From assembly GCA_016191165.1 (NCBI GenBank), contig JACPPF010000087.1:62001-126000 (forward strand): 64,000 bases of DNA, read 5' to 3'. The stretch is from Planctomycetota bacterium. GTDB taxonomy: Bacteria; Planctomycetota; Planctomycetia; Gemmatales; Gemmataceae. The notes under the pieces were generated by a model. It saw only the letters and a program-made list of their open reading frames with translations. It made no database searches and was not told the DNA's origin. This document shows, in pieces, positions 4,878 to 61,842 of the stretch. A program made the translations under genes and the position numbers. Position 1 is the first letter of the stretch. Every line of letters starts with the position of its first letter.

Positions 4878-5012
4878 CGAGGTGTATAGCTCGCGTGAGG
4901 CGGATTCGCCGCCAGGCCTTTGTCCTGCGGACCTTGCTCCTCGACCGCTGGGTAAAGGGGCACGGGGTAATAGCCGTACCGGGCTCGCAAGTGCGTTTGG
5001 CGGTCGGGCACC

Positions 5013-22539: not shown

Positions 22540-23945
22540 GGGTGCGTTGCCTCGTCAAAGTGGGAACCGAAGTGCCGGTGGAAGCGCACGTTCGCTTCGC
22601 GGAGCAGATCGGCAGTGATCGTCAGATAAACCTCAGTGCTTTGAGGATCGACATGCCCGAGGAAGGTCGATAAAACCGGCAGCCGGCTCTGCACATCGAC
22701 GCCGTCGCGATACCACCGCAACAGCCGATTAACAGCGCACGTGTGGCGCAGGTCGTGAAGCCGAGGCGGATATTGACCGGGTATGCCACTGATCCTCAAG
22801 GCACACAGAATCTCGCGGAATATGTCGAGCAGCGTCCGGTTGCTGATGGGTCGGCGCCTCTTCGCCACGAAGAGCGGATCGTCGTCGCGGACCGGCAAGA
22901 GAAGCGTCCGTCGCACGTCGAGGTAGCGTTCCAAGCAATGACCCACCTTTGGTCCGAATGGAACGTATCGGCTTTTGTGGAACTTCGTTTGCGCGATGAA
23001 TAGCGTTTGTCGGTCGAATTGAAGATCGCACAAACGAAGGCGCAGCACTTCGCCGTGACGCAATCCCAGAGCGCAAAGAAGCGTCAGCATCGTCGAGAAA
23101 GTCTCGGCGCGACGACTCCACATGTGGTTGTCGGGTAGTTTTTTGGCTTCGGCGAGAATGGCGCCAAGTTGGTCGCGCGTGAAGATGAACGGTTTGAAGG
23201 ACGAGCGCGGCAATCGATGCGGGCTGGTCAAGAACACTGGCACGGGATTTCTCGTCACGAGATTCAGGCTTTGCAGGTAGTCAAAGAAGCGGCGAACGAA
23301 ACGCATCTTGTGAATGCGAGAGCGCGCACAACACGTCAATGTGCCCAGCCACCGCTCCAGGAGATCGGGCGTAACAGCCTGAGCGGAGAGAACGGCTTGA
23401 TCGCGAAGGAAACCGTCGAAGTCTTGAAGCGCGTCTTCCTGGCACCGATAGTCTTTGCCCAGCGCCTGCTGTAAGTCGATATACGAACGAACATGCGCCG
23501 TCAGAGGTCCGGGTGGCGGGGATACAAGGCGCAATTCAGCGAGCGCAGCCTCCGGGTTGTCGGTTTGGAGCGCACGGACCAAACGCTGCCAGCTTTGCCG
23601 TCCTCGGCTTGTACGGTACTCAGCGAGTAAATCGGCGCCAATCAGGCCGGTGCCAGCCAGCACTTTGAGGAAGCGGCCAAGCACCGCAAGCCGCTCCGCC
23701 GCATACGGTATCGCTTTGCCGGCGACGTCACGAATCATCCAATTCAAAATCGTCCGTTGGTTGATTGCCAATAGCTGGATTCCCGATGAATCATTAGCGC
23801 TTACGCCGACCAGGAAGTCTGGGATGACGTGGCGCCCGATGTAGCGTTGGTGCCAGCGCTCGCCCGCCGTCGCCGCCAGATGGTTGTCCCAGACGCGCTC
23901 GACATCGAGTCGCCGCAATTCATAGCATTTGGTTTTGTCGATCAC
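22536..23945 (-). CDS. tyrosine recombinase, second of the trio
   Basis: 469 residues, longer than a typical Xer enzyme because of an extended N-terminal half (about 230 residues before the catalytic part). Catalytic motifs: GLRHGEVLRL (first Arg), LHDLRHTCA (His and second Arg) and LGHVDPQSTEVY (second His and Tyr), so it appears active. Overlaps of 4 bp with both neighbours show tight coupling. In known RIT elements the three enzymes belong to three separate subfamilies in fixed order; this one would be the middle type. Confidence 0.85.
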   Translation of the reverse strand: MIDKTKCYELRRLDVERVWDNHLAATAGERWHQRYIGRHVIPDFLVGVSANDSSGIQLLAINQRTILNWMIRDVAGKAIPYAAERLAVLGRFLKVLAGTGLIGADLLAEYRTSRGRQSWQRLVRALQTDNPEAALAELRLVSPPPGPLTAHVRSYIDLQQALGKDYRCQEDALQDFDGFLRDQAVLSAQAVTPDLLERWLGTLTCCARSRIHKMRFVRRFFDYLQSLNLVTRNPVPVFLTSPHRLPRSSFKPFIFTRDQLGAILAEAKKLPDNHMWSRRAETFSTMLTLLCALGLRHGEVLRLRLCDLQFDRQTLFIAQTKFHKSRYVPFGPKVGHCLERYLDVRRTLLLPVRDDDPLFVAKRRRPISNRTLLDIFREILCALRISGIPGQYPPRLHDLRHTCAVNRLLRWYRDGVDVQSRLPVLSTFLGHVDPQSTEVYLTITADLLREANVRFHRHFGSHFDEATHP

Positions 23946-25183
23946 AGCAATTCCTCGCCATCGCCCATGGCCACTTCTCGCAACTGATCGAGGGCGATCA
24001 TGGTGTACCGTTGTGTCGTGCTGGTGTTGAGATGGCCGAGGTAATCTCCAATGGTCTTCAGAGGGGTGCCAACCTCAAACAAGCGCTGGGCGCAGGAATA
24101 ACGAAACGAATGCGTCCCCGGTTTGGCGACGGCAACTCCAGCTTTGGCAAGATACGCCCTCACCCGACTGGCCAGACCGTCACCCGTAGCGAGCGGTGTA
24201 AACGGCGCTACCGTCGTCAAAAAGACCTCCCGATGCGCGCTGCTGGGCCGATCCTGACGCAAGTAGGCGAGGACCGCCTCACCCACCGGCACCGACAACG
24301 GATAGGTCGTGTTGTTGCCCGCCTTGCGGCCGCGAACATGAAGAAGCTGACGGCGCCAATCCAAATCGTCCAAACGAAGTTGCACGACTTCGATGCCCCG
24401 CACACCATAAACCGCCAGGAGCAAAATCATCGCATAATCCCGGCGACCGACAGGCGTCTGCCGGTCAATCACCACGAGCATCGCGTCGATCTCAGCCCGG
24501 GTCAAGAATCGAGGACATTGTTCGTACCGATACACCCGCGGCGCCAATACCGCGCCTGCCAGATTCACCGCGGTTTTCCCGCGCCGGTGCAAATCGGCAA
24601 GGAAGTCGCGCAGAGCCCCGCATCGGCTGCGCAAAGTAGTTCGGTTGCACGTTTTCGCATGGCAAGCCAGGAAGTGGTGAATCGTCTCAGGTCGCAGTGA
24701 GCGTAAATCGCTGATCCCTTCGGCCGCGACGAATATCATCAACGCCTGACATGGCCGGCGACTCAACTCCAAGCTGTCCAAACAGAGCCCGCGCTGCTCG
24801 CGGACGCGTCGCAGGTAAGCCTCGACAAGATCAGCATGGGGAAGCGCTGATTGACGCGTTTCAGGTATGGGAATGAGTTGTTTCTGCCGCAGATAACGAA
24901 CGAACCGTTGCAACGTCTGCCGAAGTTTTGGGCGATGGCTTTCGAGGCAACACACCTGCGCTACGTAGCGATCGATCCATTCCGGGACAGCGGCAAGCTC
25001 ACGGACTCCTTGCCGCGCCATGAATTCACCAAGCGACAAAAGGCGGTAGGACAGAAGCCGCATGGTCCCTTTGCTGTATCGTTGCCCGGCCATGTCCTTG
25101 AGCAAGTCATCAATTGGCTCCCGCAGCCATGAGCCATGGATGCGCGCGCGACCTCTCTGATTGGACAAGAGCGTGTCCAGCAT
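23942..25183 (-). CDS. tyrosine recombinase, first of the trio
   Basis: 413 residues. The N-terminal half has two core-binding-like regions. The catalytic part includes RDYAMILLLAVYGVRGIEV (first Arg), GTHSFRYSCA (His/Arg) and LGHLNTSTTQRY (His/Tyr nucleophile), all intact. It is first in the co-transcribed trio; its promoter should lie in 25184-25270, next to the right inverted end, so binding of the recombinases there could feed back on their own expression. Confidence 0.85.
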   Translation of the reverse strand: MLDTLLSNQRGRARIHGSWLREPIDDLLKDMAGQRYSKGTMRLLSYRLLSLGEFMARQGVRELAAVPEWIDRYVAQVCCLESHRPKLRQTLQRFVRYLRQKQLIPIPETRQSALPHADLVEAYLRRVREQRGLCLDSLELSRRPCQALMIFVAAEGISDLRSLRPETIHHFLACHAKTCNRTTLRSRCGALRDFLADLHRRGKTAVNLAGAVLAPRVYRYEQCPRFLTRAEIDAMLVVIDRQTPVGRRDYAMILLLAVYGVRGIEVVQLRLDDLDWRRQLLHVRGRKAGNNTTYPLSVPVGEAVLAYLRQDRPSSAHREVFLTTVAPFTPLATGDGLASRVRAYLAKAGVAVAKPGTHSFRYSCAQRLFEVGTPLKTIGDYLGHLNTSTTQRYTMIALDQLREVAMGDGEELL

Positions 25184-31673: not shown

Positions 31674-32582
31674 TCACGGCTTCACGAACGGGCTTCGGAG
31701 AATGGGACGAGCATCGCCCGCGACAGTTTTCCAAATGGGGGCGGAAAGAAGACGCTCCGGTTTCATGTCATGCAGGACTGCCAGGCGGACGTGCTCGGCG
31801 CCCTGTAGGTTCTTGATCGCCTCGCGGATGTTGTGAAGGCGTTCTTCGGATTGCGTCACGAAAAACACGCGCACGGCGGGGCGGTCCACGTCGGGCCAGT
31901 GCTTCCGGTAGACGGCGGTCGCCAGGAGTGCGTGGAAACCGGGGATTTTTCCGGCGACCTGTGTCAGAGTTTCCGTCGAGCGATCGTATTCCCAATATAC
32001 GAGTAGGGCGGCTTCGCCCTGGCCGCTTGGATGCGGGATGCGAAGGCAGCACGATGCGTCCGGCCAGCAGGACGCGTAACCGCCATCGGGCGTCAGCAGC
32101 TTCTCGCACAGGATGAATCGCTCGGAAAACTTCGCTTCGAAGTGAACGTTGGGGACCGTGTCATATTCCCCGATCCAGCGTGGCTTCTGAAGTCGTTGCA
32201 GGCCGCAGGCGTCGTTGACGGTGAGGCGAAGCTTCGCAACCCCAAGGCGGTGCATCACGGTCTCTGGCCTCAGCTCCTTGTTTGAGAAGTGTAAATCGCT
32301 ACGACCGGTCATCTCCTGAAGAAGCTCTGCTCCTCGTTCTGTGAGTCGAAAGAGACGGCGCGGCCTGCCGCTTCGTTCCATCGCGAAGGAAACCGACACG
32401 GAAATCGGGAGGAGAATATCGTGTGCGCAGAAAAGCCGAAGGCGACGAAGGCAGGCTTTCCCCGAATGATCGGCCGGGAAGTGCCGCTCCCAGAGCGTTT
32501 CAACGTCGAGGAGCCCGACCTCGCCGATTTCGGACAGGACTGATACGTCACGCGAGTTCACCCGAATTGCTTTGATCGTCAT
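31674..32582 (-). CDS. replication-relaxation family protein (second)
   Basis: 302 residues with GAGGAGG before the ATG. An N-terminal winged helix (SRDVSVLSEIGEVGLLDVETLW..., about 10-100) and a nuclease-like C-terminal half (LLVYWEYDRSTET, VFFVTQS) match the Replic_Relax pattern. It has the same length as the copy at 5013-5921 but is strongly diverged. It is the last gene of the nine-gene minus-strand operon and follows a VirD4-like ATPase by 10 bp, as expected for a mobilisation module. Confidence 0.7.
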   Translation of the reverse strand: MTIKAIRVNSRDVSVLSEIGEVGLLDVETLWERHFPADHSGKACLRRLRLFCAHDILLPISVSVSFAMERSGRPRRLFRLTERGAELLQEMTGRSDLHFSNKELRPETVMHRLGVAKLRLTVNDACGLQRLQKPRWIGEYDTVPNVHFEAKFSERFILCEKLLTPDGGYASCWPDASCCLRIPHPSGQGEAALLVYWEYDRSTETLTQVAGKIPGFHALLATAVYRKHWPDVDRPAVRVFFVTQSEERLHNIREAIKNLQGAEHVRLAVLHDMKPERLLSAPIWKTVAGDARPILRSPFVKP

Positions 32583-32592
32583 GGAAGCCTCC

Positions 32593-34485
32593 TCATATCG
32601 CGAGCGGGGAGCGTGGATCGTCGTCCGGCTTGTCTTCCTCGGCGACGTTAGGAGCCGGGAGAATGCGTGCTTGCCGTTGCCGTTCGATCAGGAGCGCCGA
32701 TAGGTGCCGGGCAAGCGATTGCAGAAACTGTACGCGTTCAGCTTGGATCGACGCCGGCGAGCCGTATTCGGGGCGGGCGAGGACGGTTTCCGTGAGTGCC
32801 TGCAGTTTCTTCCGTCCGAACTTCGGCGTGCGGAGAAACGGCTGCTTTGGCAGCGGGAAGGCGACGCGCATCGTCCCCTTGCCGGCGATGTAGAGAAACG
32901 CCGTGCCGATGGGGAAGCCGGCGATGGCGCTCGCGGCCTGGCTGTATTGCTCTTCGGTCGTGAAGAACTGCACGCTAGTGACGATGTCGCGGACGACAAT
33001 GCGGGGCACGAGCGTTTGCTTAAAAGTCCGGCTGCCGCCGCGGCTGTTGGTTCTCGCCCAGTTCGCCGTGGTTGTATGCGTTTGGCCTTGAGCCGCCGAC
33101 GCGCTGGAACTTGTGCCGCTGGTGTCCGCCCGCGCCTCGCCGACGGTCCGGCGTAGCGTTTCTTCATCGCGTGTCTGCGTCCGCGTCGTGCCGTGGTCGT
33201 CGCGGCGGCCCTGCGTCTCGGTCGTTGTCGCGGTGGTGCCATTCGCCTCGGCCCCGCCCTGCTGGTCGCCTTGCTGCCAGTTTTCGGCCGTGTCTTCGAG
33301 AAGCACGATGTCGTGGCCGTCTTGAAACTGCATCGGCTGCCGCTGGACGTGCTTCACCTTGGTCGGCGACAACTCCGGCAGCTTCACGAGCTTGCCGAAG
33401 TAGGTCGCATCGACTTCGTTCTGATGCCGGAAGAGGATATGCACGCGGCAGGCACCGGTGAGGGCATTCAGCAGCTTATCTTGCGTGCCATCCGGAAAGA
33501 ACTGCGTGCCAGCGTGGGCGCAGCAGAAATGCAGACGGAATTTCCGGACCTGGGTGACGCTTTCCCGGATCAGATTTGCCGACGCCGCAAAGATGGGAAG
33601 CTCGTCGACGAACACGCCGAATGGCCGACGCTGTCCGCGCGGGGTGTTGTAGGCGGCGAAGAGAAATTCGGAGAGCCAGACGTTGGCGAGAATCTCGCGA
33701 TCTTCGTCGCGAAGAACGCCGCCGGGCTCCAAGTTAATAATGACGATGGCGCCTTCCTGAATCAAACGCTGCGCATCGAGGACCGCTCCCAGTTTGCCTA
33801 ACGCCAGTTCGATGAACGGGTTTTTCAGCAGCCCCAGGAAGCGGTTCTTCGTCGAGGCGATGAGGTCTTCGCGGTCAATGAAGCGCATCTCGCCAAGTTC
33901 CTGGAGTTCGAGCTGCGCGATCGGATCGGGGGCGAGCTGCGTGAGCGGGTAATAGATCGGGCTACGGGGATCGAAGAAGTGCCGAACGTCGGGGATCGTG
34001 AGTTGCGCGAGGCCAAGGGTTTCGAGATACCAACTCGTGAACTTGAAGAGCACGGGTTTGGAATTGAAGTCCTTTTCGCCCCAGCAATGAAGCAGGATTT
34101 TACCGCAGTGGCCGGCCTTCTTGAGGACGCGAGCGCGCCAGGTGAGGGGATCAAGTCCTTCCGGATTGACGGCAAGGGGATTCACGCCGGCGATGATGCC
34201 GCCCTGGGCGGGATGGACGATGACGACGGGACGACGGTGACACTCTGGCAAATTGGCGCAGAATGCCTCCATGTCGTTTGCAGAATCGCCGTGCGGATCA
34301 ATCAGGAGGAAACCTGGCCCGTCCGGTTTCATGGCAAGTCGCTGCATGAGAAGCTGCTGCACGCACGACTTGCCGGTGCCGGAATCTCCACTGACCTGGA
34401 TGCCTCCGGCGCTTTCGTCAAAGAGCACGTCGAGATTCAGAAAGGCCGACTGGCTCATCCGCGAATTGATATCTGAACGTTGCAC
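32593..34485 (-). CDS. VirD4/TraG-like transfer ATPase (second)
   Basis: 630 residues from a GTG at 34485 (GGAGG upstream). Walker A SGDSGTGKS is at about residues 32-40 and the Walker B-like LLIDPHGDS at about 60-68, followed by a second acidic motif GVFVDELPIF (about 285-295). The region around 430-500 is a Gln/Thr/Arg-rich low-complexity linker. It lacks the long N-terminal domain of the ATPase at 2583-4877, so the two are not recent copies. It probably pumps DNA, working with the replication-relaxation protein encoded downstream; it is unusual in being transcribed with ubiquitin-system-like genes. Confidence 0.75.
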   Translation of the reverse strand: MQRSDINSRMSQSAFLNLDVLFDESAGGIQVSGDSGTGKSCVQQLLMQRLAMKPDGPGFLLIDPHGDSANDMEAFCANLPECHRRPVVIVHPAQGGIIAGVNPLAVNPEGLDPLTWRARVLKKAGHCGKILLHCWGEKDFNSKPVLFKFTSWYLETLGLAQLTIPDVRHFFDPRSPIYYPLTQLAPDPIAQLELQELGEMRFIDREDLIASTKNRFLGLLKNPFIELALGKLGAVLDAQRLIQEGAIVIINLEPGGVLRDEDREILANVWLSEFLFAAYNTPRGQRRPFGVFVDELPIFAASANLIRESVTQVRKFRLHFCCAHAGTQFFPDGTQDKLLNALTGACRVHILFRHQNEVDATYFGKLVKLPELSPTKVKHVQRQPMQFQDGHDIVLLEDTAENWQQGDQQGGAEANGTTATTTETQGRRDDHGTTRTQTRDEETLRRTVGEARADTSGTSSSASAAQGQTHTTTANWARTNSRGGSRTFKQTLVPRIVVRDIVTSVQFFTTEEQYSQAASAIAGFPIGTAFLYIAGKGTMRVAFPLPKQPFLRTPKFGRKKLQALTETVLARPEYGSPASIQAERVQFLQSLARHLSALLIERQRQARILPAPNVAEEDKPDDDPRSPLAI

Positions 34486-34491
34486 AACTGC

Positions 34492-35139
34492 TTATCCTCC
34501 AACTGCTTGCCCCGGCTCTTGCTGGCCCAGGTTTTCGAGAGCTTCGCGGAAACGGGTTTTCTCGGCTTCGAGAAGCTGCTCGCGAGTTTCGGCATCGAGA
34601 CCGGGGACAGCGCGAAGAGCGTCCATGCGCCGCTGGTGTTCTCGTTGCAGCTGGACCAAACCTGCGGAATATGACACGGGCTGTTGGGTATTTGACGGCA
34701 AATGTCCTTCCGCCTCGTCGCGGATGTAGTCGGCTTCGAACGTATCGACACCCAGAGCTTGGACAAGCGTTTGCAGCGATTCGAGCAGCACGGCGGGATC
34801 GCCTCCGTCCGCAAGTCGGTCGGCGAAACGCCGCACGAGGCGAGGTCGGAATCGACGGAACTGCCGCTGACGGAAGGCCAAGGGAACATCCTGCGCCTGG
34901 GCGGCCCAGGATGCGGCGCGGCGAAAATCAGGCGCCTCGGCAAGCTTGAACAGTGCGACCTGGAGCGCACGCGCTTTCTGGTTGAGTCGGCGAAGGTTTT
35001 CACGTTGCCTCAGTTCGATCGGGGAGAGCAGGTGCTGAGTGACGCCCCTGCCAACAGGGGTTGCCACCATCCACCGGATTATCCAGTAGCCGGCATACGC
35101 CACGGCGCCCAGGGTTGCCAATCCGCAAAGTATCTCCAT
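34492..35139 (-). CDS. membrane-anchored helical protein of the transfer operon
   Basis: 215 residues. Residues 3-20 (ILCGLATLGAVAYAGYWII) form one N-terminal membrane anchor; the rest is helical, rich in Arg, Gln and Glu and probably coiled coil in its last third. GAGGTGG precedes the start. It lies between the E1-like gene (12-bp gap) and the VirD4-like ATPase (6-bp gap), so it could tether the ATPase or its substrate to the membrane. No family recognised. Confidence 0.65.
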   Translation of the reverse strand: MEILCGLATLGAVAYAGYWIIRWMVATPVGRGVTQHLLSPIELRQRENLRRLNQKARALQVALFKLAEAPDFRRAASWAAQAQDVPLAFRQRQFRRFRPRLVRRFADRLADGGDPAVLLESLQTLVQALGVDTFEADYIRDEAEGHLPSNTQQPVSYSAGLVQLQREHQRRMDALRAVPGLDAETREQLLEAEKTRFREALENLGQQEPGQAVGG

Positions 35140-35151
35140 GTTCCACCTCTT

Positions 35152-36057
35152 TTACACGATGGCACCGTCCGGTATTGGAATGATGCCAGTTTTGGGAGTC
35201 CGGCCTCGGTACTTCACGCAATCCGGACACGGCGGCTCGCCGCCGTCCGGGTCGCGGCGGACGATGGTGTTCCAGGCGAAGTAAGCGTCGCACGTCTCGG
35301 CGATGCCGAGCTGCTCCCGCACAATGTCATGGTCACGCAGGGTCCACGAGGGATCGATCTTCACCTGGAGAAAATTACGGTCGCCGAGTTGTTCGATGAG
35401 CCGGCCATAGCGATTGTCGGCTCCGCGCGTGAGCTGCCCGAGCGAAACCATGCCGACGATGCTGTCAAGAAAGTGGATCGTAAAGATATCCGCGCCGTCG
35501 CTCGGCGGATCAAGGCGGATGCCTTGCGTCTGGGCTTGTTCATGGGCGCCATACCGCGATGCACAAATGCAGCGAAAGCACGGTCGCAAATCCTCATGCC
35601 AGAAGATGACTTCTCCGGCTCGGCCGCCGCGATATAGGCCCACCCAGATCGCCGGGATTCCTAAGCGCAGTGCGACTTGGTTGCCGAAAGCTTGTGCCTT
35701 AAACGAATCCGTGCAGAACAGCAGCAAGTTACAATCGCCGAAGTGGGCGTCGATTGCCTCCTCGGAGAGTGTTGTGAAATCCACCGGCAACCCGAGGACC
35801 TCGGCCTCCCGGTTGATGCTCGCGACCAGCGCGGCGGCGGCTTCGACCTTGAAGTGGCCGACGTGGGCGGCCATGTGTCCTTGCCGCGCAAGATTTGCGG
35901 ATTCGAGCATGTCAGGATCCGCGAGGACGAAATGCTGAATGCCGCAGCGGGCAAGGTCGCAAATGAGTCCCATGCTGCCACCAGCTCCAATGACGCCCAC
36001 TTTGGCGTTCAGGGTGCGTTCGATGTCGAGCGAGCTTTTCAGTCGATTGAGATTCAT
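35152..36057 (-). CDS. E1/ThiF-like adenylating enzyme
   Basis: 301 residues. The Rossmann loop VGVIGAGGSMG (20-30), the DPD strand end and the LARQGH segment (ATP/Arg-finger region) are those of the ThiF/MoeB/E1 superfamily, which adenylates the C-terminus of a ubiquitin-like protein or peptide. Two cysteine pairs, CFRC (about 171-174) and CPDC (about 276-279), probably bind zinc. GAGGAG precedes the start. Neighbouring JAMM and E2-like genes indicate a ubiquitin-like conjugation pathway rather than sulfur transfer for thiamine or molybdopterin. Confidence 0.8.
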   Translation of the reverse strand: MNLNRLKSSLDIERTLNAKVGVIGAGGSMGLICDLARCGIQHFVLADPDMLESANLARQGHMAAHVGHFKVEAAAALVASINREAEVLGLPVDFTTLSEEAIDAHFGDCNLLLFCTDSFKAQAFGNQVALRLGIPAIWVGLYRGGRAGEVIFWHEDLRPCFRCICASRYGAHEQAQTQGIRLDPPSDGADIFTIHFLDSIVGMVSLGQLTRGADNRYGRLIEQLGDRNFLQVKIDPSWTLRDHDIVREQLGIAETCDAYFAWNTIVRRDPDGGEPPCPDCVKYRGRTPKTGIIPIPDGAIV

Positions 36058-36119
36058 GGTTGTTCTCCTCGCATTGAAAGTTTGAACAAGGCCGGCCGAA
36101 CACGTACCGGCCTGGAAAG

Positions 36120-36758
36120 TCAGAACAGGATTAACTGCGCGGCTTGCACGACACGTTGCTCGTGCGGACGGACGACGTAGGGAATCAGAATTCCGTCACA
36201 GAAGATGGGCAAAAGGAACTCCTTGAGATCCTTGTTTTTTTCGTTCGCGAAGGATTTTCGAACATACGCAAGGTCGCCGCTGCTTGGTTGTCCGCAGCCT
36301 GGGGGATGGGAATGAACCAGGCCTTTGCAATCGAGTCCGCATTCGAGCATCCTCTTAAGCACGCGATTGAGGCCTGCGGCGTCCAGAGTGAAGGACGCTG
36401 CGGTTGCCTTTCCGTTCTTATCGGGAACATAGTGCGTTACGACGGGTGACCCTTTGAGTCCGATGAGTGCGCCGCCGGCTTCGTGCGGGACTGATGCGAG
36501 GTGCCGCATGATGTCGAGGTACGGCGCCTGTAGCATTCGAATGGACGGAAGCGGACGAGACCACGTTGCGACCTTCGGAGGATCGTCACACTTCTGGTCG
36601 CTCGTGCTGGCGTGGGGGATTCGTGGGTTGTCGTCGGGCAGCTCGTCGTCCGGCGAAAAGAGGTCGTAGGGCGGCAGGCCAAATGGAAATTCGGGGTCGA
36701 ACGGGAAGGCGCCGCACTGAAGTAATTCAGGGAATTGGCGGAAAAGGAACGGGGCCAT
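36120..36758 (-). CDS. JAMM/MPN+ (JAB) metalloprotease
   Basis: 212 residues from the ATG at 36758 (CGGAG upstream). The full JAMM zinc signature is visible: Glu93 in HEAGGALIG, then His149, His151, Ser159 and Asp162 in HSHPPGCGQPSSGD. These residues bind zinc and activate water to cut isopeptide or peptide bonds after ubiquitin-like proteins. A Pro/Asp-rich N-terminal region of about 60 residues precedes the domain. Together with the E1-like gene downstream and the E2-like gene upstream it suggests reversible tagging of proteins, or processing of a precursor. Confidence 0.85.
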   Translation of the reverse strand: MAPFLFRQFPELLQCGAFPFDPEFPFGLPPYDLFSPDDELPDDNPRIPHASTSDQKCDDPPKVATWSRPLPSIRMLQAPYLDIMRHLASVPHEAGGALIGLKGSPVVTHYVPDKNGKATAASFTLDAAGLNRVLKRMLECGLDCKGLVHSHPPGCGQPSSGDLAYVRKSFANEKNKDLKEFLLPIFCDGILIPYVVRPHEQRVVQAAQLILF

Positions 36759-36829
36759 TTGAATGCTCCGAGTGATGTGGTTGGTCGAAAGGGGAGAGAC
36801 CATCTCTCCCCTTGGGCTTGGCGGGTTGG

Positions 36830-36931
36830 CTACCGATGGAGCGTGCCATCATCGATTTCCTCGATGCCGTGCAGCGTTCCGTCGTCGATCTCTTCGATGC
36901 CGAAGAGAACACCGGGCAGGATTTCGGTCAT
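36830..36931 (-). CDS. 33-residue peptide with a tandem repeat
   Basis: The ATG at 36931 follows an ideal ribosome-binding site (AAGGAGGTGAT, 6 nt before). The peptide starts MTEILPGVLF and then repeats GIEEIDDGTLH twice, ending HR. The two DNA copies differ at several third positions, so selection on the peptide rather than a fresh duplication is likely. It lies between the E2-like and JAMM genes. It could be a substrate tag, a modified-peptide precursor or an assembly factor. Confidence 0.6.
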   Translation of the reverse strand: MTEILPGVLFGIEEIDDGTLHGIEEIDDGTLHR

Positions 36932-36979
36932 GGTTATCACCTCCTTTCGCGATGTTGAAGGCTCGGGGCGAGCGATGGT

Positions 36980-37273
36980 TTACACATCAACGCTGCCGCC
37001 GGAGTTGTCAAAGCGGCCCGTGCGGATGTACCGGGAGTACCGCTTCATCCAGAGCGAAGCGATGGCTTTGGCGCGATCGAGGGTCCTGGGCTCGTACCCT
37101 GGCTTCACGCAGATTTCTCCGCTGTCGTAGCGGTGATGGGTCTGAGAGTCGTTGCCATAGGGATCGCCGGGGCACCCAACGGCAACGATCTTGAGGTAAC
37201 TTCCGACCGGCCGATATTCGATCGTGTACTCGTCGGCGCCGTCGATGCGGTAGCGTTTCGTAACAGTTGCCAT
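36980..37273 (-). CDS. E2-like (ubiquitin-conjugating-fold) protein
   Basis: 97 residues. The C-terminal half HHRYDSGEICVKPGYEPRTLDRAKAIASLWMKRYSRYIRTGRF follows the bacterial E2-like pattern: a His-rich turn, a G-x-I-C strand with candidate catalytic Cys55, a helix and a Trp/Tyr-rich end with TGRF. The N-terminal half supplies strands (YTIEYRPVGSYLKIVAVG). AAAGGA precedes the start. Assignment is by pattern and context with E1-like and JAMM genes; structure prediction would settle it. Confidence 0.55.
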   Translation of the reverse strand: MATVTKRYRIDGADEYTIEYRPVGSYLKIVAVGCPGDPYGNDSQTHHRYDSGEICVKPGYEPRTLDRAKAIASLWMKRYSRYIRTGRFDNSGGSVDV

Positions 37274-37312
37274 GGGAATCGTGTCCTTTCTGATAGGGCG
37301 ATGACGCGGGAT

Positions 37313-37537
37313 CTACTCGGCAACTTTGCCGTTGCCATTCTGTTTCTCGTGCTGGCGGTGACGGAAGCGAAGGAGCTTCGTCAGTTCGGGAATGCAGATG
37401 ACGGCGTGCTGGATCGTCCCGTCGGTCGTCGAGATCTCCACAGCCTCGCCGGTCTTTTGCGAATACTCGCATTCGGCGTCGCTGTGAAACGCATGGATGA
37501 GAATGTCCTTCGCCTCGGTTGCGACTTGCTGTGTCAT
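37313..37537 (-). CDS. small hypothetical protein of the ubiquitin-like operon
   Basis: 74 residues, GAGGAG upstream. IQHAVICIPELTKLLRFRH in the second half may form a strand and a helix; the tail is Gly/Asn/Lys-rich and lacks a di-glycine end. By position it could be the ubiquitin-like modifier or an adaptor, but the sequence alone does not show a beta-grasp fold. Confidence 0.5.
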   Translation of the reverse strand: MTQQVATEAKDILIHAFHSDAECEYSQKTGEAVEISTTDGTIQHAVICIPELTKLLRFRHRQHEKQNGNGKVAE

Positions 37538-37573
37538 TTTTGCTCCTCGTGAGTTACGTGTTGATCGACTCTA

Positions 37574-37738
37574 TTAAGAAGGACAAACAACTTCCCGTTG
37601 CACTACAGTTGCCGCGGAAATTTCCGGGAAATTATCATCGCGTACTTCCTGCGTCGCATCCTCGGGATCATCGGGCACTGGGCCGCCGTCGGTTCCCCAT
37701 TGGTCCAGGGAATATCGATGAAATTCGGAATCGGTCAT
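37574..37738 (-). CDS. 54-residue acidic protein, first gene of the operon
   Basis: The ATG at 37738 follows GAAGGAG. The product MTDSEFHRYSLDQWGTDGG... is acidic and probably unstructured. It is 36 bp upstream of the next gene on the same strand and appears to open the nine-gene operon. No family recognised. Good ribosome-binding site and clean spacing support it despite the short length. Confidence 0.5.
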   Translation of the reverse strand: MTDSEFHRYSLDQWGTDGGPVPDDPEDATQEVRDDNFPEISAATVVQREVVCPS

Positions 37739-38226: not shown

Positions 38227-41200
38227 TCATGAATCAATCTCTTCAATTGCCCATGCATATCCTATGCGTCGCGATTCTTCAATCGCTTTTTGCAAGACAA
38301 CGGTCCCATTCGGATCGTCTCGTTCAGCCATCAATCGGCCACGCGCAATCTCTGTGTCAATGAGAAGATGTTGATAATTGCCGGTGCGGGCGTAACGGTC
38401 CGACGTAGCAAGGGCACCGTAAGCCTCTTGCGCGTCACCCGCGTTCGCTCCGGGCAATGCGGCGACAAGAGCGCATGCTTGTGCTTTCAACAATTGGATG
38501 ACGGACCGATGATAAAACGTGTTGTATCGTCGCTCCGGAAAATCTTTATAGGTTTGTTCAACTGCCTGGCTGAATTCGTGAGGGGTCATTTCACCGCTGA
38601 TGGTTTTTCTGCGAACAAGGAAAAGCTTGGCGGTTATCACAGAGGTACGCCAATCGTAATGAGTTCCATGCTTGTCCGGTGCGGGTTCTTGAGAGGACAT
38701 GACATCTAGGTACTTGGACATGTCCTCGAATGAAGTTGCATGATGGATCATTGACAACCATTTGCAATATAAGACTCTGATGGAAAGGAGTGGTGCCAAT
38801 GCCGATGCGGCGTCGAAGTCGATCTGAGCACCCACCCAATCGCCGGCCAAATCCTTCGCATACGCTCGAAGTCCAAGACAGTCAGCCTGTTGCTGAGGGG
38901 TGCCAGAAAGCGGAAATGCCAGATCTGCAAATTCTGTCGCACGTTGAATCTCCCCGGTATACAGTTCCAGCATGGCCGTACCGAATTGTGCTAAGAACAT
39001 CGCAGGTCTAAGACGTATCACCGACAGACGATCGCACGCCCGATATGCGACCTGTTTTGCGTCCGCTGTTCGTCCGACATGCGCTAAGCAAGTTGCCGTC
39101 GCCAAGTCAAAGAGTGATGACGTGAGAGGGTCATCGAAAATGGGCCCAGCCGCAAAACTGTGTCCGCGATAGAAATGGCTTGCAATAGAAAGACGCAAAT
39201 CCCACTCTTGCAAGCGAGTGACCATATAAAACGACGTCGGCAAATGAATTTGCTTGGTTGGCTGGTACAAAAAACTCAGTGGTCCCCACCCAAACCGGCC
39301 CATTAATTTTGCAAGAAAAATGCACACAGACTCTCCGAGTGGCAGGTGAGTAAGAAAGCCCCAGGTGCGCATCTGTGTTGTCAGCCACGCTTCGCCGGAA
39401 AGATGGTCTGGCTCGTCCAACCTAGCAGTCAAAACTGCCAAAGCATGCCAAATCAAATCACCCGCGCACCCGTGTCCAATGGCTTCGGCAATGGTCCGCG
39501 CTGCGGCCTTCTGATTTTCGATTTGGATTTTGAACTCTATCGTGGAATCTTCAAGCACCGACAGCCTCTCTTTGCATTGCGCGAGAATCGCGTAGAAGAG
39601 CTGACGGTTTGCAATCTTCCAGGCGTCAGATTTACCTTCCTGAATTCGCTTTCTGAAAAAGTTCCTCACAATAGGATGGACATCGAGGATTCGCGAAACG
39701 CGTTCCTTCGAAACGCGTTCCTCGTACTCTGACAGAAGCCCGTACTGACGCAGCCTTCCGATGGCTTCATTCAGTTCTAGGCAAATGACCTCTTTCGGTG
39801 ATGAACAGATGCCTTCGATCGGGATTTCCATTAGGGGATCCAGTTCGGGAAGTGCAATCGGATGGTCGAAGACTGCAAGGGCTCGCAAGACGAACAATTC
39901 TGTGTAGCGTTTGTCGGATTCGAGCGCTTGTTCATACGCCGCGATGACCCGCTCGGCATGGCGGCCAGGTCCTGTCGTCGGAGATATAGGGATCTCGCGT
40001 CGGGGATCGCCTTCAAGGTAGGTGACTAGGTATTTGCCTGCAAGTATCAACCCGAGTGGATAGCCTTCGTATTCTTTGATTAACGACAGGATGGAAGGTC
40101 GGTCATCCGCATCAAGCAAATCTGATTGAACACCGATGTCATTCAATAACGCCCGTGCCGCGTCTTCCAACAGCTCCTCCAGGGCAAAGGTGGATACGCC
40201 TCGTCGATCGGTCGTCAAGTCCGACGGCTTAAAGCGAGTCGTCAAAATGCAAATGCCCTGGAAATCTCGCTCAAGCAGACGCATTAGAAAATCAACGAAA
40301 GCTGCATCTCGAAAATGAGTGCCGCGGTTTGTTTCCGGCGGGTTTTGAATTACTTCCGTCCCGTCAATTACGAGGACCGTCGGTTGTCTTGTTACAAGTG
40401 CGGCAAGCCTTTCCGATTGCTCATGCAATGTTCCGCCGGTTGGATCGGGATCGCCGAAGTGGGCCAGTGCGGATCGAAAGAAAAAACTCGAATCAATGCC
40501 TCCAGACTCTTTTTGGCCCTGTCGATAAAACGAATAGCCGAAGCCACAGACCATGTTTTTCCAACCGGACTCTTTTAGGTCATTCACCCACCTCTTCACT
40601 AATGCAGTCTTGCCGAAGCCACCGAAGGCATGGATTACGACAATCTTGTTCTCGCCTTCTGCCAAGGATTGATTCAAGAATTGCAGTTCATCGACTCTCC
40701 CGAAAAGTGGCGACTCGGTCGCAACACGATCGAGGAAACTGAAATTGAAGGCCTTGCCCAAGTCAATCGGATCGCCTGCCTGCGCGGAAGTCTCTTGATT
40801 GACACCCACCCCTGCGACCGAGACCGGTTTCGTGGCAGCTCTGTGATCCGTCGGAGTGCACTCGGCGATGTTCGGCGGTGTCGCATGAGGCTCTGCACGG
40901 CTCTCTGATCCTGTCCACCGCGCGTTCAATGCAGTTGCAAGTGATTTCAGGCTTGCTGGCTCGTTCGAGATACAGTTACCGTCCCAAAAAAGGTCGATCT
41001 CATTTGGTGAGAGCTGATTGTAATCAAATAGAACGTAGTACCCGCCATTCCTTTTTCCTTTCTTAATGCACGTGTGAATGAAGCGGCGCTTGGTACTTTT
41101 TTCCCTCCCGAATAGTTCCTCGTGCCAATTGTTCGGTTTCTCCAATGAGTTATGCAACGAAGCCGCGGGACTTGCGTTTCCACCAGTCAGAGCCACAGGT

Positions 41201-41397
41201 TGGTCGTCCTTGTTAACAACAATTGCTGCCCTGGCGGCTACTGCAAGGAGGCCGACAGCCTGTATGGCCTGTCGATCCCGAATAGTCTTTCGGTCGCTGG
41301 AGCGAACTTTGTCAATGGCGTCGTGCGTGAGCGTCGTCGCCACCAGCAAAGGATCCGCCTTACCTTCAAACCACAGCGAAAAATTTCTATTTTGCAT
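38227..41397 (-). CDS. STAND/NLR-type NTPase, candidate antiphage sensor
   Basis: 1056 residues. A central NB-ARC/NACHT-like module has Walker A AFGGFGKTA (257-265), Walker B VLVIDGTE (341-348), a sensor-like ICILTTRFK (382-390) and a GYPLGL motif typical of STAND proteins. The region 224-240 (FLDRVATESPLFGRVDEL) matches the usual lead-in. Residues 1-200 form an N-terminal domain I do not recognise, ending in a low-complexity linker (165-210). The last 400 residues are helical, TPR-like repeats that would sense a ligand. Such architectures act in bacterial abortive-infection immunity (Avs/NLR-related), but also in regulation. Stand-alone gene beside mobile-element genes. Confidence 0.7.
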   Translation of the reverse strand: MQNRNFSLWFEGKADPLLVATTLTHDAIDKVRSSDRKTIRDRQAIQAVGLLAVAARAAIVVNKDDQPVALTGGNASPAASLHNSLEKPNNWHEELFGREKSTKRRFIHTCIKKGKRNGGYYVLFDYNQLSPNEIDLFWDGNCISNEPASLKSLATALNARWTGSESRAEPHATPPNIAECTPTDHRAATKPVSVAGVGVNQETSAQAGDPIDLGKAFNFSFLDRVATESPLFGRVDELQFLNQSLAEGENKIVVIHAFGGFGKTALVKRWVNDLKESGWKNMVCGFGYSFYRQGQKESGGIDSSFFFRSALAHFGDPDPTGGTLHEQSERLAALVTRQPTVLVIDGTEVIQNPPETNRGTHFRDAAFVDFLMRLLERDFQGICILTTRFKPSDLTTDRRGVSTFALEELLEDAARALLNDIGVQSDLLDADDRPSILSLIKEYEGYPLGLILAGKYLVTYLEGDPRREIPISPTTGPGRHAERVIAAYEQALESDKRYTELFVLRALAVFDHPIALPELDPLMEIPIEGICSSPKEVICLELNEAIGRLRQYGLLSEYEERVSKERVSRILDVHPIVRNFFRKRIQEGKSDAWKIANRQLFYAILAQCKERLSVLEDSTIEFKIQIENQKAAARTIAEAIGHGCAGDLIWHALAVLTARLDEPDHLSGEAWLTTQMRTWGFLTHLPLGESVCIFLAKLMGRFGWGPLSFLYQPTKQIHLPTSFYMVTRLQEWDLRLSIASHFYRGHSFAAGPIFDDPLTSSLFDLATATCLAHVGRTADAKQVAYRACDRLSVIRLRPAMFLAQFGTAMLELYTGEIQRATEFADLAFPLSGTPQQQADCLGLRAYAKDLAGDWVGAQIDFDAASALAPLLSIRVLYCKWLSMIHHATSFEDMSKYLDVMSSQEPAPDKHGTHYDWRTSVITAKLFLVRRKTISGEMTPHEFSQAVEQTYKDFPERRYNTFYHRSVIQLLKAQACALVAALPGANAGDAQEAYGALATSDRYARTGNYQHLLIDTEIARGRLMAERDDPNGTVVLQKAIEESRRIGYAWAIEEIDS

Positions 41398-42129: not shown

Positions 42130-42492
42130 ATGGCTACTCGTCACTTACGACGTTCCGAAGATCATGAGTTGTCGGCCATTTGGCCGGTCGCCTGTACGAC
42201 ACGTTGGTGCTCGATGAACGCCCAGTGCGGTAAGGAATTCGACAAAACTGACGTTCGGCGCCTACAGGTCGGGCTCCTCCTGGAGGCTGTCATCGATAAG
42301 ATCCGGGGCACGAAGTGCCGGCGGACGATTCGAACGTTGTGGCTCAATCAATGGGACAAGAAGGAGACTGCCAAGGACCTTGGTGTCTCCGAAAAGGCCA
42401 TCTCGGTGGCCCTATGTAGGTTCAAGAAAGCGGCTGCTGGAATCGTGGCGGCTCCGGAATTCCAAGAGGTTTACGAGCGTATTTTCTGCTAA
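42130..42492 (+). CDS. sigma-70 region 4-like HTH protein
   Basis: 120 residues from the ATG at 42130 (GAGGAAT upstream). Residues 75-105 (TIRTLWLNQWDKKETAKDLGVSEKAISVALCRFKKA) form a helix-turn-helix of the sigma region 4 / small-terminase type; a CTTRWCSMNAQC segment precedes it. Region 2 is missing, so it is more likely a regulator than a full sigma factor. Its 3' end overlaps the convergent serine recombinase by 4 bp; it may control that integrase. Confidence 0.6.
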   Translation: MATRHLRRSEDHELSAIWPVACTTRWCSMNAQCGKEFDKTDVRRLQVGLLLEAVIDKIRGTKCRRTIRTLWLNQWDKKETAKDLGVSEKAISVALCRFKKAAAGIVAAPEFQEVYERIFC

Positions 42493-44300
42493 CCCGGCGC
42501 ATTCAAAGCGTTGCTCGTTTCTTCATCCTGGCCCTGAGACATCTTGGGGCCTTTTGTTTTTGCCGGCATTGGCGGCGGTTCTGAACACGTTCGACATACT
42601 TCCTCGACATACTTCTCGATGATTTTGGCAGACCCCTTGTTCCGAAAATCCACCGGCCCTTTGTATCGCATCGACCGTACAATCGTTCGCGATTCCTTTC
42701 GTCGCGACGCTTCGCAGCCGTTGAACGCAAAGTGCGCACGATGATGGACGATGACATAGTCGCGAGTTGTGGCCTGACCGTGGAAATGGACCTGCACGAA
42801 CGCCAACCGTTTGGTACCGTCGGCAATGAAGAGGCAATAGATATTCGACACAAGGCGGCGGATCGCCGCGCGAAGCCGGAGACGCGCGTCATCCTGGTCC
42901 GGAGCCTGGTTCAACAGGTCGATGAGAGAGTGGCACGTTGCCCATGCGGACATGAGCGGGGTTGCCGCCTGTCGCCTTGCTTCGTCGAGTTCTTTCGTGA
43001 TGGCAACCTTCTCTGCCTCCAAGGTCTTCGCTGCGGTCGCGAGCGCATCGATGTCGCCCTTGTCGAGGAGCGCCGCCGATATTTTCGTCAAACGGCCGTC
43101 GATGCCCGCAAGTCGGCCCGTGAGAGCCAGCACGGCGTCGACCGTCTTGGGACCCCTGGGCACGAGGGAGTCCACGTCGATTTCCTTGAGTTGGGAAAGG
43201 ATGGCACGTTCAAACGGGACTGACGGGAAGCTCGTCATCTTCGCACCTTCAATGCCCTGATAGGCGCGATAGGACGCCAGTATTTTTCCGCTGCTCTTCT
43301 TGCCCCTGTCCAGTTGGAAGAATGTTCCTCCGTCCCGCGCGTCACGCAATAGATTGGCAAACAAATTGATCCCGCCTGCGGCCGGCCGTCCCGGTTTATT
43401 GTGCCGATTGGCGAGTGCGGCTCTCGCCGCGTACCACTCTTTCTCTGACACGATCACCGGGTAGTAATCGGGGATGAGTTCCCCGGTAGGGTGACGTTTT
43501 TGCCCGTGTGCGATCGTGTGGGGCTGGTATTCGCCGACAACGGCCCGATTTGAAAGAATCTTGGCGATGTATGATCTGGCCCAGTAATCGGCACGACCGA
43601 TGGCCGGGATCTTTTCGGCGTTGAGTTGTTTGGCAATTCTCCCGAGTCCGTACCCGTTGATCGCCATTTCGTAGATTCGGCGCACAGCGGCCGCCGCTGG
43701 CTCGTTGACAACGAAGGCACCGTCCTTCACGTGAAGCCATCCGGGCGTCCGCTTCGTCAAGACTTCTCCGTCACGCCCCGCCCTCTCCCGCTTGGCAGAC
43801 CAGGCTCGGCCGACCCGCTCCGACTTCATGCGGGACTCGCTATGCCCGCGACTCAATTCCATGATCGCCATCATGAGCGTCATCGGCTCGACGGCTTCGT
43901 CATAGATCGTCTCGACGGGCAGAAGCTGCACGATGCGGATGCCGTTGTCGATCAAGTTGAGGAGCAAGGTGAGTGCCGGCCGGATATGTTCGCGCGTGAG
44001 CCGATCCAGCGATTCGACGATAAGATAGGAGCCGCGGGCGATGCGGCCGGCGTGGACGAGTTCGAGGAACGTTGCCAGGGCATGGCGGTCTGGGTTCTCC
44101 CGGTGCTTGCCGGAAAAGCCGCTGATGCCCTCATCGCGTAGCGTCAACGTAGTGTTGAGCATGACGCCGTTGCGGTCGAGCCATTGATCCCGCAATTCGG
44201 TCTGGCGCCGAACGGAGTCGCCTTTTGATTGCTCGGGTGAGCTGAACCGGAGATACGAATATGCCGTGGCCGGGGTGCTGTTCTTGGTTTTCATCGCCAT
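42489..44300 (-). CDS. large serine recombinase 1
   Basis: 603 residues. The N-terminal resolvase domain has YLRFSSPEQ with the catalytic Ser20, then [11 protein letters not shown], as in large serine integrases. A recombinase domain ([42 protein letters not shown]) follows at about 190-240, with a zinc-ribbon-like region and a long helical C-terminus (about 370-470). The 5' end is about 50 bp from the left edge of the comM fragment, so it is probably the integrase of the element to the left of 44353. Confidence 0.85.
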
Positions 44301-44353
44301 CGCTCCCTGTAATGTGGACCGTGTTGCTCCTCCTCGCGCTACACAATTTTATC

Positions 44354-44776
44354 CACAACATGTTGATGATCGGCACGCCCGGTTCGGGCAAGACGATGCT
44401 GACGCGGCGAATGCCGACGATTCTCCCGCCGTTGACGCCCAGCGAAAGCCTGGAGACGACGCGCATCTACAGTGCGATGGGCCGGCTCGCGCCGGGCGAG
44501 GCGCTGCTGGCGACTCGGCCTTTCCGCTCGCCGCATCATACCATCAGCGACGCCGGCATGGTCGGCGGCGGCACGATCCCGACGCCCGGCGAGATTTCCC
44601 TCGCCCATCATGGCGTCCTGTTCCTGGACGAGCTGCCCGAATTCAATCGCCGCAGTCTCGAAGTGCTTCGGCAACCTCTCGAAGAGGGCAAAGTGACGAT
44701 CTCGCGCGCGCTGAACTCGTCCACCTTCCCGGCGAGCTTCGTGCTGGTGGCCGCGATGAACCCGTGCCCGTGCGGC
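44354..44776 (+). pseudogene. comM/yifB (Mg-chelatase-like AAA+ ATPase), central fragment
   Basis: 141 codons match the ATPase core of ComM/YifB, from [14 protein letters not shown] (Walker A) through [19 protein letters not shown] and [11 protein letters not shown] (Walker B) to [11 protein letters not shown]. Both ends stop abruptly: the left in the GGHN region before Walker A, the right directly after NPCPCG, where family members continue with an aromatic residue. Each broken edge adjoins a serine recombinase gene, so the gene appears cut twice by integration. ComM aids branch migration in transformation and is a known insertion target for genomic islands. Confidence 0.85.
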
Positions 44777-46937
44777 TAACGCTGATTTTCATTTCGTCTG
44801 GAAGTACCCGTTTCGCAGCATCCGTGTCCTTGGGCACGAACCTGTAGCTGACTACCTCCGTCCGACGCTTTTTCTTGGGGCCGGTCAGCTTTACGTCGAA
44901 GACGGGGTAGACCCGTTCCACGAAGCTGGCGAGCAGTAGGCCGATTTGGGTTTTGTCCGCCGCAAGGATCGTTTCTCGAATCGAGTTGAGTTGTTCGAGG
45001 GTTGCCCGTGCCTTTTGTGTAATCGGGACAAGTTGCGGTTCGATCTCGGCTCGGCGTTTGTCTAGTTCCTCAGCCCGCTTGTCGAGGCGTTCTGCCATGC
45101 TCTGGTTCTTTCTTCTTTGAACGACGATCTCTGAGGCAATCCCGTCTAGTTCATCGTTGATGGCAGTGAGTTCGGCCTTCAGAGCGGCGACGGTGGTGGT
45201 GAACTCCTGGTCGTAGAAGTCGAAGGCCCACGAAAAGACCTTGGTAGCGTCCGGCCTTTCGAGGATACCGTCTTTGAATTCGATCTTCTTGACTGTGAAT
45301 TCGGTTTCGACGTGTAGCTTCTGAGCAAGGAAGCCGTAGATGGCGTGCGAGGCGGGGTTCTCCGGGTGGTGGCCTTTGCCGAGTACAGCCCAAATGATGC
45401 TGAGGATGGTCTTGCCGAGTTCGGACTTCTTCAGCCATTCGGCTTCCGTCAAGGAGTTCAAGTCACCCCGGCTAATCGTGTCGATGCGGTCGGCAACTCT
45501 CTTCAACATTTCTTCTATGGCGGCGTCGAGAGTTTCCCACCGTACCGTGTTGGCGTTGCACTTCGCCCGGATGGTCTTGCGGTAAGTCCCGCAAACAAAA
45601 CAGCGGTAACGCTTCGCTTTGCCCTTCGTTTTCTGAAGTGTTTTGGTTCCCGGCATGAATGAACCGAGAACCATCGGGGCGTCACAGTCAGGGCAGAAGA
45701 GTTTGCCGTTCAGCGGGTGGGTTGCCTTGTCACGGGTCCGTCGCTTGCCAAAGCTGTCATTGACCTGGGGGCGGTTGTCGAGTTTCTGCTTCACACTGGC
45801 GAAAAGATCGGGCTTGATGATCGGGGCGAACACGGGGCGTTTCGGGAAGATGTACTGGTCCTCCGTCTTCTTCATGACAAGCGTTTCGTCCTTTTTCCGC
45901 TTCACCGGCATCGGCATCTTATCCAAGGTGATGCGGTATTCACCGACTCCCACCTTCCCCCACGCCGGAAGGCCGACGTAGGCCGAATTTCTCAGGATGG
46001 TTTCGACACCGTGGTAGCCGAACGGCTTGTCATAGTGGCCGAGACGCTGATTCCAAAGGCTTTCGGAGATGGCTCCGAACTCAAGCCCCGAATGATACAT
46101 CTCGAACATCTGGCGAACGGCTTCGAGCCTGTTGACCTCGACGGATGGTTCGTACCTGTATCCCGTGGTCTTCTTGTCACGGGGCGGCATGTTGTTCTGG
46201 ATGACTTCCCGTTCGACTTCGAGCCGGGCGTTGACGATGAATCCGGCATTATCACGGTCTACACAGCTTTTGTCTGTGTAATAGATGACTCGATATTCGT
46301 GAGGCTTCTTGTACCGGGTCCGCACGACACGCCAAAGCGGACGGGTCAGGTCATTCAGCGGGTAAAGTACCAAGTCGATTCCAAACGGATTGTTCCCGGT
46401 CGTCGCCCACCCTGCTTCCGCCATCTGAATCATCTTCTGGATGTTTTTGTCAGCCATACCGGAGACGTAGCGGGTACTCCCTTCAGCGGCAGCGGCGACA
46501 CGCCAAAAATCACCGTCTTCCAGCCCCGTGACGTTGAGTTGATCCACGACGGCGTACAGTCCAACGTCGTACTCTCGGAGTTTGCTGCGGAAGACGAAAA
46601 CTTCGTCCTTGTCACGGATGCCCCAGCGGTCGAAGTTGGAAATCACGATCCAGTCGATGGAACCCGCCTCGACGAGTTGCATCATGTCGTCAAAGCGATA
46701 CCGCTTCCGACCCGTGTTTTGCTTTCTCTTGTCCCAATCCCGAAAGAAGCTGGCAGATTCGTGCCGCCTGATCTTGTCCTCGAAGCGGAGTTCGTCGGGA
46801 ATGTGTAGATCGTGGGAATCAAGCCAACGCTGGACCGGCTCCCAATGGTGTTCCAGGCGTTGCTTGGGCGTGCTAACTCGACCGAAATAGGCGAGGCGGT
46901 CGCCGGACTGTGGACAGTTCTTGATGCGTGTTTCCAT
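44643..46937 (-). CDS. large serine recombinase 2
   Basis: 764 residues from the ATG at 46937 (GGGAG upstream). The resolvase domain shows [10 protein letters not shown] with the catalytic Ser, then [12 protein letters not shown]. The recombinase domain includes [21 protein letters not shown], and a zinc ribbon ([11 protein letters not shown] ... CFVCGTYRK) and coiled coil follow, as in large serine integrases. The last 45 or so residues (after KISVS) are read from the antisense strand of the comM fragment, so the present C-terminus is formed by the integration junction at about 44776. It is probably the integrase of the element to the right. Confidence 0.85.
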
Positions 46938-60850: not shown

Positions 60851-60852
60851 GG

Positions 60853-61758: not shown

Positions 61759-61842
61759 GGGTAGCTTACCCTAATCCTAGTAATGACCTGAGCTTCTTTC
61801 GCTCGTGATCCGCATTAGTCGAGGCACGGACTTTCGCAGCGA

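Follow-up and report, generated by a model that had tools for sequence, protein, structure and literature searches.

A putative 11-residue peptide tag encoded with E1-type, JAMM protease and ring-motor genes in at least six bacterial phyla

Introduction

What does an E1-type adenylating enzyme activate, and what does a JAMM protease cut, when both are encoded beside a peptide of 33 residues and ahead of genes of the DNA-transfer type? This question is raised by an operon in a DNA stretch of 64,000 nucleotides from a Planctomycetota bacterium of the family Gemmataceae (assembly GCA_016191165.1, contig JACPPF010000087.1, positions 62,001 to 126,000 of the forward strand), referred to as a whole as the window. 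A preliminary description had taken the operon for a ubiquitin-like tagging system. We propose, with a probability of roughly 0.6, that it encodes a peptide-tagging system with a logic like that of ubiquitin conjugation, in which the modifier is an 11-residue peptide instead of a beta-grasp protein. The nine minus-strand genes that had been described are all present, as follows.

36830..36931, minus strand: repeat peptide of 33 residues, candidate modifier precursor; two 11-residue units plus a one-residue tail
36980..37273, minus strand: E2-like protein of 97 residues, candidate thioester carrier; invariant His47 and Cys55, E2 fold unconfirmed
36120..36803, minus strand: JAB/JAMM metalloprotease of 227 residues; Pfam PF14464 (Prok-JAB), 4.2e-8, complete set of catalytic residues
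35152..36057, minus strand: E1/ThiF-type adenylating enzyme of 301 residues; Pfam PF00899 (ThiF), 3.2e-25
34492..35139, minus strand: membrane-anchored protein of 215 residues; single N-terminal hydrophobic segment, kept in 11 of 11 loci of its branch
32593..34485, minus strand: VirD4/TrwB-like ATPase of 630 residues, without membrane segments of its own; assigned from a weak DUF87 match, a relative in locus L074 and gene order
31674..32582, minus strand: Replic_Relax (replication-relaxation) protein of 302 residues; Pfam PF13814, 3.6e-12
37313..37537, minus strand: accessory protein of 74 residues; conservation is strong in L033-L036, the four nearest loci
37574..37738, minus strand: open reading frame of 54 residues that may not belong to the operon; no relative in the loci examined

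The JAMM protease, the E1/ThiF enzyme, the replication-relaxation protein and the membrane-anchored protein were thus identified as first described, whereas the 54-residue product, once counted as an operon member and possible modifier, was not sustained in either role. The remaining proteins of the operon, beyond JAB, E1 and Replic_Relax, match no Pfam family above cut-off. Intergenic gaps are of 6 to 62 bp, and the interval between the E1 and ATPase genes has no terminator-like or promoter-like site on the minus strand, in agreement with a single operon.

An 11-residue peptide recurs beside the E1 gene

The peptide gene of the window, running from the ATG at 36931 to the stop at 36830, is preceded by AAGGAGGTGAT and encodes, as had been noticed, a repeat peptide of 33 residues, MTEILPGVLF-GIEEIDDGTLH-GIEEIDDGTLH-R, with a repeat period of 33 bp, that is, of 11 residues. 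Its two repeat copies differ at seven codons, with seven synonymous and no nonsynonymous changes. Among 36 loci, defined by E1 searches alone and numbered here with an L, the peptide is present in 33. As to the other three, the contigs of L040 and L041 start at the E2-like gene, and the E2-like gene of L072 is truncated.

The unit has the consensus GxEE[ILV]xxGT[LF]H and comes as a tiny gene, a tandem array or a fusion to the E2-like protein. First, in the branch of the window the peptides include MFKHVPGVEELPDGTLH, MADVLKGVEELPSGTLH and MRRQCMGIEEIPDGTLH, and the complete peptide gene of Flavobacterium L042 is MRKSNRKGVDELEPGTLHA. Second, arrays are made of GEDVVPPGTFH repeats in L037, five exact GGESVPSGTFR units in L050, four GDDELPEGGFR units in L052 and three GEEVLPPGGFR units in L075, most arrays having units of 11 residues and that of L088 units of 12. 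Third, in L047 and L051 the E2-like protein carries fused units at its N-terminus, and in L042, L044 and L048 it is preceded by single GTLH-like units. After the conserved -GT[LF]H the protein ends, runs on for a variable tail of one to three residues or continues with the next unit; likewise, in ubiquitin precursors the conserved end is followed by nothing, a short tail or the next unit. We also weighed a mature C-terminus at two glycines ('...GTLHGG') but discarded it, since neither the final units of arrays nor the single-unit genes end in GG; both stop at GT[LF]H or no more than three residues away from it. The first unit of an array is often degenerate (MTEILPGVLF in the window, SEGTLC in L047, IPPGSFC in L049, IPVGGFR in L075); its last residue, directly ahead of the first G(G), is often not His, and such a unit may be a leader or a first cut site.

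Neighbouring repeat copies across the arrays show 106 synonymous against 10 nonsynonymous codon changes, which, for a neutral synonymous fraction of 0.25 and with codon changes treated as independent, gives P ~1e-52. In L036 a serine is encoded by TCT in one copy and AGC in another; therefore, it is the amino acids and not the DNA that are preserved. Judged by its codons, the peptide is translated and under purifying selection. No description of such a peptide was found in the open-licence literature, although preprints or subscription papers could hold one.

The operon is conserved, widespread and rare

A phylum-wide search with the E1 sequence gave four full-length relatives of 49-53% identity, all of them in two complete chromosomes of another planctomycete family. 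In these four loci the genes for the 74-residue protein, the E2-like protein, the peptide, JAB, E1, the membrane protein, the VirD4-like ATPase and Replic_Relax follow each other in identical order. The four lie on single contigs of 7.7 Mb, that is, on chromosomes, which does not bear out the plasmid residence that had been supposed. A profile search of the same family added six loci, from as many further genomes, in which the genes from the E2-like protein through Replic_Relax are intact. The order E2-like protein, peptide, JAB, E1, membrane protein, VirD4-like ATPase and Replic_Relax is kept in 11 of 11 loci, including the window, and conservation of the whole order in ten further loci excludes chance by a wide margin.

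Scanning a genome collection with the E1 alignment gave 17 loci, from Bacteroidetes, Phycisphaerales, Verrucomicrobia/Kiritimatiellae, Acidobacteria, Bythopirellula, Lachnospiraceae and Spirochaetaceae, and in all 17 an E2-like protein and JAB accompany E1. Cultured carriers include Chryseobacterium defluvii and Dokdonia pacifica. The full set of 36 spans planctomycetes, Bacteroidetes, Verrucomicrobia/Kiritimatiellae, Acidobacteria, Firmicutes and spirochaetes. Across the genome groups searched the system is rare: counting in each case the already known carrier, it was found in 12 of 170 genomes of the planctomycete family, 1 of 299 of the Flavobacterium family, and 4 of 319, 2 of 324, 1 of 189 and 1 of 191 genomes of other groups. 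The E2-like protein had no match among viral contigs and plasmids; in plasmids the E1 query matched only general ThiF proteins, at less than 37% identity, and two other E1 types matched nothing.

Invariant residues of the protease, the E1 and the E2-like protein

The JAB protein retains E108, H164, H166, S174 and D177, covering zinc binding and catalysis, in all 14 aligned proteins; in Bacteroidetes it bears C-terminal membrane segments. In E1, the adenylation residues G26, G27, D47, D49, N55, Q59, K70 and D117 are invariant in 20 sequences, as are four zinc-type cysteines (160, 163, 277 and 280). The 36 E1s form one supported group in the tree (96/92), separate from 26 control ThiF proteins. 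When the E1 profile was compared with the PDB, the nearest entries were UBA5, MoeB and ThiF, followed by the peptide-activating MccB; PaaA was also matched. MccB is an E1 relative that adenylates a heptapeptide.

The 97-residue protein has exactly two invariant residues among 23 aligned relatives, His47 and Cys55, a pair that might fit a carrier, and its AlphaFold2 model (predicted local distance difference test score, pLDDT, of 78) consists of three strands followed by a helix. We use 'E2-like' as a label taken from gene position and residues, not from ancestry. At least two E2-like genes per locus were seen in L079, L080, L045, L050 and L087, some with an N-terminal membrane segment.

Ring motors usually accompany the putative tagging genes

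The motor ATPases that adjoin the tagging genes are given here by the four groups of the E1 tree. First, group IV, the planctomycete branch of the window, carries the membrane protein, the VirD4-like ATPase and Replic_Relax in all of its 11 loci. The VirD4-like assignment, already made in the preliminary description, is weak for the window copy itself (DUF87, E 0.0015), but stands for its relative in L074, which matches the type IV secretion system coupling domain TrwB_AAD_bind (PF10412, 2.4e-7). Second, in group II, of Bacteroidetes, a coupling ATPase of PF02534 (T4SS-DNA_transf) comes directly after the tagging genes in L042-L044 and L046, and farther on in L047 and L051; L042 also encodes a MobA/VirD2 relaxase. 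PF02534 matches are at 7.9e-37 in L042, 2e-63 in L047 and, outside this group, 1.9e-55 in L073. A coupling-type ATPase also follows the tagging set in the Firmicutes relatives, so that the association of the tagging genes with a transfer-type ATPase holds beyond the window. No membrane helices are present in these coupling ATPases, next to which lies the gene of a distinct small membrane protein.

Third, in group I, where JAB and E1 are fused, a Clp/Cdc48-type AAA+ gene comes directly after in 11 loci (AAA_2, 1e-28 to 1e-37; in L045 the match is restricted to the N-terminal part), so that the link of E1, the E2-like protein and JAMM to the VirD4-like ATPase is not universal. Exceptions within this group are L073, with PF02534, and L054 and L093, which have AAA+ plus VirD4-like and Replic_Relax genes; in the latter two a gene that on reading resembles an MT-A70 DNA methyltransferase lies between the AAA+ and VirD4-like genes. 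The Clp/Cdc48-type proteins of L049 (9103-10536), L052, L053, L054, L075, L087, L088 and L093 share at their N-terminus a conserved stretch of some 165 residues that matches no family and could possibly be a tag receptor. Fourth, group III, of Phycisphaerales, has after E1 a Cys-rich, RING-like protein (L041:1958-2518, L040, L072), read from its sequence and without a Pfam match, which is a possible E3.

A proposed mechanism and the points against it

The proposal starts from the gene linkage, the near-universal peptide, its purifying selection, the invariant catalytic residues and the motor partners. The precursor would be a tiny protein of one unit and a short tail, a tandem array, or units at the N-terminus of the E2-like protein. 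JAB would cleave behind -GT[LF]H to give free peptides ending in this motif, and E1 would then adenylate the new C-terminus with ATP, as its conserved adenylation residues and the precedent of MccB suggest. The peptide may next move to Cys55 of the E2-like protein, with the help of His47, before it is passed on to a target protein, off which JAB could also strip it. Gene linkage points to the ring motor as the handler of the tagged protein. In the window branch the VirD4-like ATPase would be anchored via the membrane protein, with Replic_Relax as its DNA-transfer partner, and the other branches would use either a coupling-protein ATPase or an AAA+ unfoldase of the Clp type. Thus, the tag or its removal may be coupled to unfolding in the Clp-type branch, and to transfer of DNA or protein in the VirD4-type branch. 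In its widest form, we regard it as an even bet that in six or more phyla a peptide of 11 residues, in many cases encoded in tandem, serves as a reversible covalent protein tag that is activated by E1, carried by a Cys/His protein, removed by JAMM and read by a ring motor, with no ubiquitin fold involved.

Several points weigh against this proposal. First, the reactions, the targets and the biological outcome are deduced from linkage and sequence, and no motor gene adjoins the module in L037, L038, L056 and the Phycisphaerales loci. Second, the alignment shows no invariant catalytic cysteine in E1 beyond the zinc-type four, and therefore an E1 thioester is doubtful. Third, the E2 fold initially ascribed to the 97-residue protein was not confirmed: Pfam matches none of the 23 relatives, a sequence profile search of the PDB gave no E2, Foldseek gave no match to the model below E 1.8, and HHalign against three eukaryotic E2s gave 4%. 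Since no E2 homology was detected, we can only assume that E1 hands the peptide to this protein. Fourth, JAMM enzymes mostly cut after glycine, whereas the cut proposed here falls after His or Arg. Fifth, some peptides were assigned by eye and are divergent, namely, L045 (SVQDESFHA), L054 and L093 (GVFC), L056 (GTFR within a fusion) and L053 and L055 (GTWY/GTWH). Sixth, one argument in favour is weakened: a strict motif at the end of open reading frames gave 17 matches in 130 kb of operon strand, against one in 923 kb elsewhere and none in 165 kb around control ThiF genes, but it had been derived from the very loci in which it was then counted. A held-out test is cleaner and free of this circularity: L087 and L088, found by the E1 profile only, both encode the peptide (2/2), but these are two loci only.

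To our knowledge, all E1-E2-type protein modifiers have the beta-grasp fold. If our proposal is true, E1 enzymes can drive tagging without this fold, and both research and engineering gain a minimal tag that is easy to synthesise. Peptide, JAB and ring motor would then form a miniature likeness of ubiquitin, Rpn11 and the proteasome ring, and mobile DNA elements would contain a hidden layer of control, easily missed because the peptide genes have only about 17 to 36 codons.

Alternative explanations

The units could be core peptides of a pathway like those for ribosomally synthesized and post-translationally modified peptides, excised by JAB and adenylated or modified at the C-terminus by E1, as MccB does for microcin C, with a free small molecule or signal as the product. 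The short precursors, tandem cores and degenerate first units would fit, as would the match of the E1 profile to the peptide-activating MccB and PaaA. However, the neighbourhoods examined share no recurrent gene for export or immunity, the partners are DNA-transfer or Clp-type motors, and the unit varies little from phylum to phylum, unlike the core peptides of toxins, which usually diversify. We consider this explanation unlikely.

A conventional ubiquitin-like system, in which the 74-residue or another protein is a cryptic beta-grasp modifier, the 97-residue protein a true E2, and the peptide an accessory such as a JAB-processed regulator, would account for the relatedness of E1 and JAB to those of known systems and for a gene order similar to BilA-BilB-BilC-BilD (PMC11354881). 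This was in part the role first given to the 74-residue protein, which on inspection lost it: it has a strong match in only five of the 36 loci and a weak one in a sixth, lacks a diglycine end, and its AlphaFold2 model (pLDDT 71) matches no ubiquitin-like or other fold. Neither was any ubiquitin-like Pfam family found near the operons; among 118 small open reading frames around at least 15 loci there was no ubiquitin, ThiS or Prok-Ub family, although a cryptic or distant beta-grasp protein could escape such a search. A conventional system thus appears very unlikely.

It is just as improbable that the peptide inhibits, as a removable N-terminal segment or in trans, a Cys/His enzyme other than an E2, with JAB cutting as a switch and E1 modifying something else: the units or single GTLH-like units that precede the Cys/His protein in five loci and its lack of E2 homology would agree with a propeptide, but the peptide is mostly a separate gene, with up to five exact units that a propeptide would find superfluous, and E1 is present in every locus.

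Comparison with known systems

The peptide-tagging system proposed here shares with BilABCD and with operon types 6a-6e, as these appear in the relevant passages of Iyer et al. 2006 (PMC1779556), an E1, a JAB and a Cys/His protein in the E2 position within one operon, often on mobile elements, and probably precursor cleavage by JAB. It differs in its 11-residue candidate modifier, its E2-like protein without E2 homology, its E1 with a single ThiF domain and its usual motor ATPase partner. Those passages list E1-E2-JAB operons on mobile elements and mention no such peptide. BilABCD is defined by a BilA with two ubiquitin-like domains and an E1 with inactive and active adenylation domains and Cys domains (PMC11354881); membership was ruled out for the window, whose E1, of 301 residues, contains a single ThiF domain and lacks a conserved catalytic Cys. 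Because no beta-grasp modifier was found near the operons and the E2 fold is unproven, we do not class the system as a member of the ubiquitin-like conjugation systems, although it would work alike.

With MccB and PaaA, of microcin C and pantocin biosynthesis, the system has in common an E1-type enzyme and a short peptide as its likely adenylation substrate, but its E1 gene is accompanied by those for JAB, a putative Cys/His carrier and motor ATPases, the tandem units are conserved between phyla, and export or immunity genes were not seen. Pupylation (Pup-PafA-Mpa) likewise combines a small tag other than beta-grasp with an AAA+ unfoldase, the latter linked here in the fused JAB-E1 branch. Pup, however, has about 64 residues and is attached by a glutamine-synthetase-like ligase, in contrast with the E1, JAB and 11-residue tag found here; no PafA-type ligase was matched by Pfam among the operon genes of the window. 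Type IV coupling proteins (VirD4/TrwB/TraG) resemble the PF02534 or PF10412 ATPases that in the relatives lie near relaxase, MobC or Replic_Relax genes, but the ATPases found here are without membrane helices of their own and adjoin a separate small membrane protein.

Two further candidates were ruled out. The PRTRC cassette also combines E1 and JAB on plasmid-type DNA, but its ThiF model TIGR03736 scores 18.4 bits against a cut-off of 144.75, as the preliminary description had anticipated. Models of type II cyclic oligonucleotide-based antiphage signalling systems (CBASS) and of PADLOC E1-E2 systems, which are defined by a fused E2-E1 protein, match in the E1 part only (best 4.8e-17), and none matches the 97-residue protein.

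Surroundings of the operon in the window

The immediate upstream neighbour of the operon, also on the minus strand, is a large NB-ARC/STAND-like ATPase gene (38227-41397); like the 54-residue open reading frame, it is outside the block conserved in the relatives compared. A second TrwB/VirD4-like ATPase (PF10412, 4e-10), adjoined by a protein of the size of Replic_Relax without a Pfam match, is found at 2583-5921 on the minus strand, with no tagging genes. At 56207-63987, minus strand, there is a defence-like island with a GmrSD restriction protein, a SIR2-like protein, a short Piwi/Argonaute-like protein with an adjoining gene without assignment, and a DUF499 protein. Finally, three integrase-like genes in tandem, of which one was confirmed to encode a phage integrase, and a pair of large serine recombinase-like genes, again with one confirmed, occupy 21523-25183 and 42489-46961 on the minus strand, and so flank the operon region.

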